Origin: a virus
Virus record (IMG/VR): IMGVR_UViG_3300048538_000042
Coordinates: 1 to 55,760 of that record
DNA: 55,760 nucleotides
Strand: one strand, 5' to 3'
A model generated the notes under the pieces. The model had not been told where the DNA came from. It searched no databases and was given only the letters and a program-made list of their open reading frames with translations. Position numbers and translations under genes: made by a program. Below, piece by piece: positions 3,343 to 7,342 of the stretch (positions are counted from its first letter, which is position 1; each line of letters opens with the position of its first letter).

Positions 3343-3597
3343 CTAATGTACCTGCGCCTTCTTCGCTCCACGCGTCCGACGATAACTCCGGTTCTTACTA
3401 GCAGAAAGCACCCCAAGATTCTTCCCACTGTTGTCCCTCGGGTTCCCGTTCCGATGAGTAACGTCCTTCCCATCACCCTTCTTTACCTTGCCAGACTTCA
3501 ATAACTTAGCTCGGGCCGCGTTCCTCGATGCTCGGTTCTTCTTCTGCTTGTCCGAGGAATGATAATTATCATACTCAGACCTATAATCTCGGCCCAT
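3343..3597 (-). CDS. Small basic HNH-like protein
   Basis: 84 residues from ATG 3597 (MGRDYRSEYDNYHS...). A longer frame to 3621 exists, but the ATG at 3597 has AGGAGCACGG upstream and fits the promoter at 3627-3655. The protein is very basic. Its middle carries GDGKDVTHRNGNPRDNSG and NLGVLSASKNRS, resembling the His-Asn core (DH.d.nP.NN...NL....NR) of small HNH-type phage proteins. The catalytic Asp-His is replaced by Thr-His, so nuclease activity is uncertain. It is the first gene of the leftward late region. Confidence 0.75.
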   Translation of the reverse strand: MGRDYRSEYDNYHSSDKQKKNRASRNAARAKLLKSGKVKKGDGKDVTHRNGNPRDNSGKNLGVLSASKNRSYRRTRGAKKAQVH

Positions 3598-3626
3598 GGT
3601 CCGTGCTCCTTTTGTTCTCAAACAGT

Positions 3627-3655
3627 ATTATACACGAATGAATCTACAACACCAA
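3627..3655 (-). promoter_or_regulatory. Sigma70-like promoter for the late leftward region
   Basis: On the minus strand a perfect -10 TATAAT (3627-3632) lies 17 bases downstream of TTGGTG (3650-3655). Transcription would start near 3620, just before the HNH-like gene. A second TATAAT (3657-3662) has no good -35. Confidence 0.6.
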
Positions 3656-4033
3656 CATTATAGGGGGCGCACAGCACAACCGTCCCGCAAATAAGGGGGT
3701 GATGGGGGTCGGACCCCTGCACAATATCAATAGGTATTCGGCCCAGTAACCCCTAACGCATGTGTGTAGCAGAGTGGTCATTGGTTCTAGGACCTGTGCT
3801 CTGGGTAAGCTCGTTTCTATACCCCCGGGGGTGCTGCAAGTTCCAGAAAAGTTTTAGTCTCGACCCTTTGTTTTTTGGTGGGAACAGATGCGATGTATTA
3901 TACTGCTGCTTAGTCTGGGCGACGCCCGGGCTGTCGTGAACCAAGCCCCTTCAGGTCTTGGCCCTTCGGGCTTCCATCCCTGTCGCACTCTCGTGAACAG
4001 AAGGAGAGTTGATCGGGAATCGTCCGAGGCGAC

Positions 4034-4137
4034 GGGTCAACCGTGCAGTGGCGCGGTCGTCCCGCTCGGCTCGGACTGTTCGACGGACAAGACCGCGACC
4101 CAGCCACCTACAGTATCCGAGGTCATGATGGTCGCGG
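4034..4137. ncRNA. Candidate structured RNA element with alternative helices
   Basis: CGCGGTC-GTCC (4052-4062) pairs with GGAC-AA-GACCGCG (4085-4097), giving 11 pairs with a two-base bulge. GGGT (4034-4037) with ACCC (4098-4101) closes outside it. CCGCGACC (4093-4100) is also the perfect 8-bp complement of GGTCGCGG (4130-4137), so the two helices exclude each other. Strand and function are not determined. Confidence 0.4.
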
Positions 4138-4180
4138 TTGTTGTCCTGCGTTGGTAATCACGAGTTGCGCGACGCGGTTT

Positions 4181-4242
4181 CCAGCCTTTGTGTGGCCTGT
4201 CGAACGTCCTCGCTGACGCTGCGGGCGTCGGCCACGGGCTGG
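4181..4242. ncRNA. Candidate structured RNA element, three nested stems
   Basis: CCAGCC (4181-4186) pairs with GGCTGG (4237-4242), GTGGCC (4192-4197) with GGCCAC (4230-4235), and GACGC (4215-4219) with GCGTC (4225-4229). These 17 nested pairs lie in 62 noncoding bases. Probably part of the same element as 4034-4137. Confidence 0.4.
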
Positions 4243-4300
4243 TATCGCCCTGTTAGTTCAGTGTGCTGTACTCAATGTTGGTTAAGGGGCTCAAGATGAA

Positions 4301-4320
4301 TAGATCCCTGTGGGGATCTA
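4301..4320 (+). terminator. Perfect hairpin with AT-rich tail
   Basis: TAGATCCC-TGTG-GGGATCTA is an 8-bp perfect stem followed by TAGTTATTTATTTATT. It could end a transcript crossing the structured region. The tail is AT-rich rather than a pure T-run, so a 5'-UTR structure is also possible. Confidence 0.4.
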
Positions 4321-4370
4321 TAGTTATTTATTTATTGAAATGTCCTGCCGCTTTCCGTACCGGACGCGGA

Positions 4371-4454
4371 AACTTAAACCCTGAGTAAAGGTGGAACGCT
4401 GCATCAAACCTCAAGTGGTTTGACGCTGCATTCCATTGACTCAGGGTTTAAGTT
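4371..4454. repeat. Long dyad: 16-bp perfect inverted repeat with partly paired interior
   Basis: AACTTAAACCCTGAGT (4371-4386) is repeated inverted at 4439-4454. Inside, GGAA/TTCC and AAACC/GGTTT also pair. The segments between hold two direct copies of CGCTGCA. It lies 78 bases upstream of the first early gene. An origin, operator or hairpin RNA is possible. Confidence 0.85.
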
Positions 4455-4532
4455 TGCGTTGAGTTACTTCATCGGCCAGACGTTTCAATAAAAAAACTAA
4501 AGTCGATATTAACTCAAACATAGGAGGCCAGC

Positions 4533-4787
4533 ATGGCTACTTCAAACTATACTAACACAGACGATATGCCCATCAGCCTGAACATCACAGTTCGGGAACT
4601 CAAGTCAATCGAACGCCTTATGACTGAGCACGGCTCAGAGTGGAACGGTTGGAGTACCGAACGTCAACTGCACAAGGATCTTCGTAAGGTTCTAACACAG
4701 GCGTTCGTATCTATGGCCGACAGCAGCAGCTACGGTCAACGCGAGTATGACTCAGTCGTCGAGTACAAAGCGAAAGACGCCGCTTAA
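4533..4787 (+). CDS. Early protein of unknown function
   Basis: 84 residues, ATG with strong AGGAGG upstream. It begins MATSNYTNTDDMPISLNITV and contains a mixed-charge helical centre (VRELKSIERLMTEHG). No recognised domain, signal or membrane segment. First gene of the rightward early operon; its TAA overlaps the next ATG (TAATG). Confidence 0.75.
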   Translation: MATSNYTNTDDMPISLNITVRELKSIERLMTEHGSEWNGWSTERQLHKDLRKVLTQAFVSMADSSSYGQREYDSVVEYKAKDAA

Positions 4788-6197: not shown

Positions 6198-6202
6198 CTA
6201 AC

Positions 6203-6220
6203 GGGGGGCTTCGGCTCCCC
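6203..6220 (+). terminator. UUCG-loop hairpin, copy 2
   Basis: GGGGGGC-TTCG-GCTCCCC right after the stop of the first early cluster. The core GGGGGCTTCGGCTCCC is identical to that at 5200-5215. It likely ends or stabilises the early transcript. Confidence 0.55.
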
Positions 6221-6240
6221 CAACTACTATCATAAATAGA

Positions 6241-6259
6241 GTCACGCTAGTCGCGTGAC
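6241..6259. terminator. Hairpin between converging genes
   Basis: GTCACGC-TAGTC-GCGTGAC is a perfect 7-bp stem, with AAATTTTGG to the right and, on the minus strand, TCTATTTATG. It lies between the end of the plus cluster (6197) and the minus VRR nuclease (ending 6368), so it may terminate both. Confidence 0.45.
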
Positions 6260-6354
6260 AAATTTTGGTAAAAATTGAGTCTCGTTCCTCGACACTTGTT
6301 TAATAGGCTCGGCTCCCTCGTCCCTCGGTCGCCTCGAAAAGAAAATGCGCGCGT

Positions 6355-6396
6355 GGGGCCGCAGGGCTTACCGCTGCGCGAGGGGCCGCAGGGCTT
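6355..6396. repeat. 15-bp direct repeat
   Basis: GGGGCCGCAGGGCTT at 6355-6369 and 6382-6396 (27-base period). It overlaps the C-terminal codons and stop of the VRR nuclease gene. Confidence 0.8.
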
Positions 6397-6760
6397 CGAA
6401 CATCGAGCCAAGACCCTCGAACCTGTGTCCAGCCGTCCCAGACAGCCCGTGATCATGCAAACTAGACCCCTTGTACCCCTCAAACAAATATAGCACCTTC
6501 AAAGAGGGGGCCTTTACCAAGAAGAAAGTCGCGCCGCCGCGAGCCCAATATGCAGCATTCCACGCAATTTGATGAGGCGAGAGACGGACGGCGTAGGAGT
6601 TTGCTACCTTCAATTCCATCCAAAACGGGACGCCATCCCAGACAGCATGGACATCCGGAACCCCGCCCCCGTGCTTGTTTTCAATCCTCGTGGCGAAGCA
6701 CTTCTTCGGCAGATTTGTCCTGATCGATTGCCAAAAGTTCGCTTCCGGTCCCTTGCTCAT
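6368..6760 (-). CDS. VRR-NUC-type endonuclease (PD-(D/E)XK fold)
   Basis: 130 residues. The core shows ATRIENKHGGGVPDVHAV (Glu, then PD), FWMELKVA (E-x-K) and RLSPHQIAW, the order of catalytic and structural residues of VRR-NUC/Holliday-junction resolvase-like nucleases. In phages these cut branched DNA before or during packaging. ATG 6760 has AAAGGA about 11 bases upstream and lies inside the small terminase gene (80-base overlap), so the two are co-transcribed. About 30 C-terminal residues lie beyond the fold. Activity is inferred from motifs. Confidence 0.8.
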   Translation of the reverse strand: MSKGPEANFWQSIRTNLPKKCFATRIENKHGGGVPDVHAVWDGVPFWMELKVANSYAVRLSPHQIAWNAAYWARGGATFFLVKAPSLKVLYLFEGYKGSSLHDHGLSGTAGHRFEGLGSMFEALRPLAQR

Positions 6761-7253
6761 CTGGTGTGATGTCCTTTGCCGTGCCGTCGATCACAAACGC
6801 CTGCGGATATTGTTTCTGCAATGCGGCAAGGCGAGATGTGATCTCGTCCCGCGACATCTGATCGATGGTGTTTATGTTTTCTCTCCGGTCGACTGTAAGG
6901 CCCCCCAAAGCAGCGCGGATCTTTTCGGCGTTGATGGCTGCTGAAAACTGCCCCGCCTCCTCTGCGCCCGATGACAGCTTGTACAGCCGTTCTAACTGCC
7001 CGATGGTGCTGACGCCATATCGACGCTGCCTTTCCTCCCTGAGTTCGACAACATATTCCAAAACGTGCGGGTAATCCCGTCCGTTGAGCAGCTTTGACGC
7101 GCTGGTGTTCGCCACTTCTGCTGAGTACCCAGCCTTTCGAGCAGCTTCTGCATTCGAGTAAATCCCTTCGACAATGTGTCTCGCAAAGGTCCGTTGTCGG
7201 TTGGTCAAGACCCGCCCATGTTCTTCTTCGATCTTCTTTTCCAGCTTTCCCAT
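6681..7253 (-). CDS. terS: Terminase small subunit
   Basis: 190 residues from ATG 7253, with GAGG five bases upstream (the frame could open at GTG 7259). The start has the helix-turn-helix typical of small terminases: LTNRQRTFARHIVEGIYSNA followed by EAARKAGYSAEVANTSASKL. A long helical region (VVELREERQRRYGVSTIGQL) suits oligomerisation, and the acidic tail would contact the large subunit. Its role is to recognise the packaging site. Unusually, it is about 8 kb from the large subunit, on a minus-strand cassette between two plus-strand early clusters. Confidence 0.85.
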   Translation of the reverse strand: MGKLEKKIEEEHGRVLTNRQRTFARHIVEGIYSNAEAARKAGYSAEVANTSASKLLNGRDYPHVLEYVVELREERQRRYGVSTIGQLERLYKLSSGAEEAGQFSAAINAEKIRAALGGLTVDRRENINTIDQMSRDEITSRLAALQKQYPQAFVIDGTAKDITPDEQGTGSELLAIDQDKSAEEVLRHED

Positions 7254-7342
7254 GCACACCTCACTTGTGGTCTACCAACAATTTACAACAGCCCGCCTTC
7301 CTTTGCAAGAAGCCTATATATAGCACTTTTCTCCAGCTAAAT

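Follow-up and report, generated by a model that had tools for sequence, protein, structure and literature searches.

A covarying motif in the gene-free interval of a tailed phage

The interval between the late and the early genes of the phage analysed here carries a motif of about 80 nt, termed M (3909–3991, plus strand), that is beyond doubt a real covarying structural motif and is well supported as a DNA-level motif. GC-rich stems and a long imperfect hairpin come after M, and the element as a whole looks as if it were built like a Frpo, a single-stranded DNA promoter of conjugative plasmids. We favour, while rating it at somewhat under an even chance, the reading that the interval is a Frpo- or ssi-like single-strand start site for early expression or for the priming of replication.

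The window, by which we mean the whole stretch of DNA analysed, is the entire virus record of 55,760 bases. Among the annotated part of its genes, portal, terminase, capsid and tail genes (late) run leftward on the minus strand, and genes for an AEP-type primase, a UvrD-like helicase and a family-A polymerase (PolA) run rightward on the plus strand. Terminase, portal and capsid together with primase, helicase and polymerase identify the window as a tailed dsDNA phage; no conjugation genes, which would point to transfer as single-stranded DNA, were seen in the same annotated part. As originally predicted, late and replication genes diverge on either side of the interval, and no conserved ORF lies between an HNH-like gene on its left border (3343–3597, minus strand) and the first early gene (4533–4787, plus strand). 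An 89-codon ORF at 3888–4157 was rejected as a gene since relatives diverge after about 3988 and the indels are not multiples of three. The first early gene encodes 84 amino acids, lies 3' of the element on the strand of M, is kept in relatives and matched no Pfam family; its ribosome-binding site AGGAGG (4522–4527, plus strand) falls within a conserved block (4507–4540). Both ends of the contig (1–60 and 55700–55760) consist of short tandem repeats (GTCCCAGTAACGCCA and TGCCTCCTG units), and the assembly may therefore stop inside repetitive coding DNA.

The original prediction had further described the interval as GC-rich and structured over its length and as the only long gene-free stretch of the genome, which proved correct in part. 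The GC content is raised at about 3900–4300 (57–64%), while 3600–3800 resembles the flanks (about 50%) and 4300–4500 is poorer (43%). Many inverted repeats were found. In a DNA folding scan with 200-nt windows (278 across the genome), 4001–4200 had the second lowest minus-strand folding energy and 4201–4400 reached a z-score of −4.1, whereas 3601–3800 and 3801–4000 were unremarkable (z +0.4 to +1.3). The uniqueness of the interval is doubtful, as 6198–6680 also appears to be gene-poor, though overlapped by a 130-codon minus-strand ORF. This second stretch is likewise GC-rich, adjoins a terminase small-subunit-like gene (6681–7259, minus strand) and contains the 200-nt segment whose DNA fold is lowest in energy genome-wide.

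At the left end of the interval, the block 3624–3667 is almost invariant among 21 relatives. It contains two minus-strand TATAAT boxes (3627–3632 and 3657–3662), and direct reading of the sequence gives TTGGTG at 3650–3655, 17 nt from the TATAAT at 3627–3632. The block is most simply read as a leftward promoter, serving the late operon. Its promoter-like part (3627–3662), which was not called by a strict promoter scan, probably lies outside the folded element.

Three further parts follow M. A GC-rich multi-stem module (3992–4240), delimited by homology breakpoints and folding energy, is exchanged among relatives and is common to two of them (L012 and L024) as far as 4212. An inverted-repeat search then found a short perfect 9-bp hairpin, ATAGATCCC-tgtg-GGGATCTAT (4300–4321), that was called terminator-like, a kind of call no commoner here than in shuffled sequence. 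Finally, inverted repeats I1–I3 form a long imperfect hairpin on the minus strand (4327–4496; core 4365–4460, outer arms 4327–4350 and 4473–4496), upstream of the first early gene. On the minus strand its 4362–4462 portion has a DNA folding z-score of −11.4, the long imperfect hairpins that lie between M and the gene in six relatives, which comprise several unrelated sequences, have −3.9 to −9.2, and those of plasmids F and R100 have −5.5 and −9.3, all of these values being inflated because the hairpins were chosen by eye from folds. The hairpin 4327–4496 might act as a promoter that mimics a duplex or as a hairpin at which synthesis starts. A promoter scan of 3580–4560 called no canonical sigma-70 promoter, and the right arm of the hairpin has TTGACG and TTGACT without a good −10 element.

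Loci of relatives, fetched through the neighbouring HNH gene and early gene, hold M in the same orientation between these two genes. Positions 3624–3988 are conserved in more than 20 contigs, most of which then diverge abruptly at the 3' end of M, and similarity returns only at the ribosome-binding site (about 4507–4540). A TATTAT box at 3897, just 5' of M, is absent from most relatives and was dismissed as a start site. Many relatives carry after M a second conserved two-hairpin module (GTCAGTCTCCGAACTGACAGTCGGCCAACGG...CCGTTGGATC) that is absent from the window; its carriers include L003, L004, L006, L007, L008, L015, L019, L020 and L029.

Structure and covariation of M

M consists of an outer helix P1 (GCGAC/GTCGC), an optional side hairpin, a helix P2 and the hairpins P3 (3941–3961) and P4 (3962–3970). 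A covariance-model search found a single copy in the window, matched at 80.1 bits (E 2e-25), this copy being among the 48 training sequences of the model. On its own, the M of the window is no more stable than shuffled sequence, and the structural case thus rests on covariation. Across 48 diverse copies, 93.5% of cells are paired, and changes on both sides of a pair occur in 152 cells compared to 47.9 ± 5.2 in shuffles, none of 500 shuffles reaching this number; sliding the partners by one column abolishes the signal. In 200 copies, the pair that the variable base of CTTCNATC forms with the base preceding TCGTGAA occurs in all four Watson-Crick forms, and within the family of the window a helix has been swapped as a whole, contigs with ACTCA having TGAGT in 9 of 9 cases. 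Most copies were gathered with an exact search pattern in which TCGTGAA, CTTC and the CCC/GGG of P4 are fixed, and the invariance of these elements is therefore built in; the pattern left P1, P3, the N–N' pair and most of P2 free. Conserved pairing in homologues, on which the original prediction had staked itself, was thereby strongly borne out.

Distribution of M and the strand that carries it

M was found in many tailed phages, in Microviridae (two of which were matched by plain blastn) and in conjugative plasmids of Pseudomonas and enterobacteria, and it links three kinds of mobile element: plasmids, microviruses and tailed phages, among them a family of lytic type. A Frpo-type copy from Salmonella, searched together with its flanks, gave 13,053 E. 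coli matches, 12,894 of them on plasmids, and conjugative plasmids make up 963 of the 1,026 that a Pseudomonas copy hits (a raw share, without a baseline for the whole collection). Outside the Proteobacteria, M was matched at 85–87 bits in the Negativicutes Selenomonas and Anaerovibrio (L229, L234 and L241). A weak M-like match (27 bits, E 7e-7) lies in the leading region of the IncN plasmid R46 (L348, 22075–22172, minus strand). Among phages with a related primase, M is absent from DSL-LC04 (49.5 of 61.5 kb searched) and from MW202510 (searched as a whole). We found no description of the broader M family in phages in the open-access literature.

In plasmid F, M heads both Frpo1 and Frpo2, within a duplicated segment of 559 nt (89% identical). 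Frpo2 lies directly upstream of ssb, and in R100 M heads the Frpo found upstream of ssb. Frpo is a single-stranded DNA promoter: the entering T-strand folds, and host RNA polymerase transcribes the leading-region genes (PMC9849209; PMC11541004; PMC7736820), the RNA doubling as primer for complementary-strand synthesis (PMC7736820). As far as the open-access literature shows, such single-strand start sites are known from conjugative plasmids only.

Both in F and in R100, M and the leading genes share a strand, which places M', the complement of M, on the T-strand. A Pseudomonas plasmid agrees, M' being on the entering strand as judged from the positions of its mobF and stb genes, with oriT inferred. 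M is opposite to the genes in all four microviruses, hence the virion strand carries M'. Since M of the window shares the plus strand with the early genes, the minus strand, which is their template, carries M' and is the strand proposed to fold.

M can be separated from the promoter in plasmids. The ssi2 and ssi3 sites of ColIb-P9 (IncI1), a leading-region single-stranded DNA promoter repeat, share the stem module and the promoter hairpin of F but lack M, and the similarity to F begins exactly at the 3' end of M. Because these ssi promoters work without M, M is not the promoter itself but a separable upstream module of the plasmid Frpo repeat. In the IncI1 ssi repeats another structured block replaces M (L340, 7552–8322 and 14606–15335).

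M appears to act as folded DNA

The base pairs of M are strikingly poor in wobbles. Pairs 1–5 of P3 are 92–99% Watson-Crick, and pairs 1–5, 7 and 8 comprise 8 G·T (0.6%) and 17 A·C in 1374 cells, whereas tRNA stems of the same contigs have 7 G·T among 144 pairs (4.9%), a comparison that serves as an argument and not as a formal test since the M copies are phylogenetically dependent. The conserved C·T mismatches of the M strand correspond to G·A on M', and the fold of M' is more stable than that of M in F (−23.0 versus −17.1), the window (−14.2 versus −12.1) and a gokushovirus (−22.5 versus −20.6). The near-absence of wobbles, the presence of M' on the entering strand and its better fold point to M acting as folded DNA and not as RNA. 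Covariation in phage intergenic regions thus need not imply RNA, and wobble depletion offers a simple test of DNA versus RNA.

This bears on the undescribed ncRNA that the original prediction had proposed for the interval. A structured RNA, whether an independent ncRNA or a 5' leader belonging to the early mRNA, would account for the strong covariation, for M lying ahead of the early operon in sense orientation, and for the RNA fold of 3630–4535, which is better than that of shuffles on both strands. We nevertheless regard it as very unlikely given that G·U-type pairs are nearly absent, that M is antisense to the genes in microviruses and that convergent pairs of copies (see below) place M and M' within one transcript; moreover, Rfam matches neither the window nor the plasmid copies. 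The paired element, which in other phages occurs in both orientations relative to transcription and which is present at known single-stranded DNA promoter loci, appears instead to be folded DNA. Known phage RNAs such as GOLLD and ROOL resemble the interval in being large structured gene-free regions, but their covariance models match nothing here and the wobble statistics of the window are unlike those of RNA; the earlier failure to match either was thus reproduced, and no other Rfam family matches meaningfully, the low-E matches being weak miRNA-family hairpins far below gathering scores. Phage C4 antisense RNA was discarded as the identity of M, as the enterobacterial and Pseudomonas copies match no Rfam family, and a search for a hidden tRNA or tmRNA found none. 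Nothing was found in support of the packaging element that had been suggested as well. Elsewhere in the genome, 44288–44340 (minus strand), which lies upstream of the capsid gene region, matches the Rfam family Mu-gpT-DE RNA at 64.8 bits.

A putative single-strand start site for the early operon

The order of M, GC-rich stems, long hairpin and gene is common to F, R100, the window and the six relatives, which counts for a Frpo-like model, as does the lack of any canonical sigma-70 promoter call in 3580–4560. As in Frpo1 and Frpo2 (ssiD) of F and in Frpo of R100, the element is headed by M, which shares its strand with the gene downstream and is accompanied by GC-rich stems, and a long imperfect hairpin precedes the first gene of an early-expressed operon. 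Sequence similarity is limited to M, which alone aligns between the window and Frpo2 of F (63 nt, 77.8% identity, E 3e-8). Moreover, F and R100 are plasmids that enter as single-stranded DNA, whereas the window is a dsDNA tailed phage. We do not file its element as a Frpo because the promoter hairpin has no homology to that of F, −10 and −35 elements are not established and entry as single-stranded DNA is not known.

In the model that we favour, the minus strand would become single-stranded, perhaps during entry, when an origin melts or as a displaced or lagging-strand template, upon which M' and the hairpin 4327–4496 would fold into duplex-like structures. The folded structures would then be the starting point for a primase or, in the manner of Frpo, for the RNA polymerase of the host, and the RNA would run rightward into the early operon, where it might serve as early transcript, as replication primer or as both, as published for Frpo. 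A role in entry is not obvious because the phage packages dsDNA. The model predicts which strand folds and in which direction RNA is synthesized. Against it speak the lack of M in ColIb-P9, DSL-LC04 (in the part searched) and MW202510, the hairpin of the window, which is not homologous to that of F and shows no convincing −10 or −35 element, and the convergent M pairs of other phages, which it leaves unexplained.

The priming role of Frpo RNA would also suit a different reading, in which the whole interval is the replication origin of the phage and M primes the first strand with no promoter role. The interval coincides with the GC-skew turning point of the genome (assumed to be circular), the phage has primase and polymerase genes of its own, and the M of microviruses, which lacks a long hairpin, would suit a complementary-strand origin. 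The turn in skew is, however, not independent, as it coincides with the change in gene direction; neither iterons nor an AT-rich melting region were identified, and M is absent from the complementary origin of G4 and from alpha3. We hold an origin of this kind, with no promoter role, to be improbable. The DnaG-type complementary origins of G4 and alpha3 resemble the microviral M copies in being intergenic hairpins of the virion strand; a DnaG G-site was rejected as the identity of M, since G4 and alpha3 gave no M by either the pattern or the covariance model and the G4 origin is not visibly homologous.

Convergent M pairs and a possible mobile hairpin

Other phages present an arrangement that differs from the single M of the window. 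Among the matches listed, 25 of 30 adjacent pairs of copies less than 1 kb apart are convergent in other phages, and all 24 adjacent pairs on bacterial or plasmid contigs share one orientation. The ORFs enclosed by convergent pairs are unrelated in their central domains (dCMP deaminase, DUF1643 or HNH) but have N- and C-terminal tails in common, 'PVPASIPSA' and 'AQAIEARRAETGTGSVHESAV', whose coding sequence is M and M', an arrangement reminiscent of gene cassettes. Such pairs speak for one of two readings: that M has a further role at the borders of cassettes, or that it is a recombinogenic hairpin.

M could be chiefly a mobile or recombinogenic DNA hairpin that passes from one mobile element to another, marks module boundaries and would be a mere hitch-hiker near Frpo and in the window. 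The framed ORFs, the several M copies of some elements and the position of the breakpoints, with the similarity of relatives ending and that of F and ColIb-P9 beginning at the 3' end of M, would fit such a hairpin. Ordinary homologous recombination can, however, leave sharp breakpoints wherever a block is conserved, and no dedicated recombinase is tied to M. In the phage family of the window M is a single copy of constant place and orientation, and its strand is constant in plasmids (24/24 adjacent pairs) and in microviruses (4/4), and we consider a chiefly mobile role unlikely. REPINs and other palindromic elements and the attC sites of integrons offer a parallel, as they too are DNA hairpins that fold at the boundaries of modules or cassettes, some of them in-frame within genes; inverted copies flanking exchangeable genes are seen in other phages, the window having a single M. 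M differs from them in that no link to a transposase or integrase is shown and in the one fixed copy and orientation of the window family.

We tentatively suggest, as a possibility that falls well short of even, that M is one ancient and very widespread family of DNA structures. It would provide a single-strand landing site on the T-strand of plasmids, on the virion strand of ssDNA phages and, in dsDNA tailed phages, in the early control region or as inverted pairs framing exchangeable cassettes, the proteins of which bear tails encoded by M. On this reading, dsDNA phages would exploit a step of single-strand recognition hitherto known from plasmid entry.

A protelomerase target site was discarded as an explanation of the pairs: the convergent pair near a Sphingopyxis 'telomere resolvase' gene frames an ORF and is without a long central palindrome. 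Convergent pairs 130–730 bp apart occur in L131, L132, L134, L161, L165, L201, L344 (MZ127829), L345 (PP496355) and others, and tyrosine recombinases lie near the M pairs in two phages.
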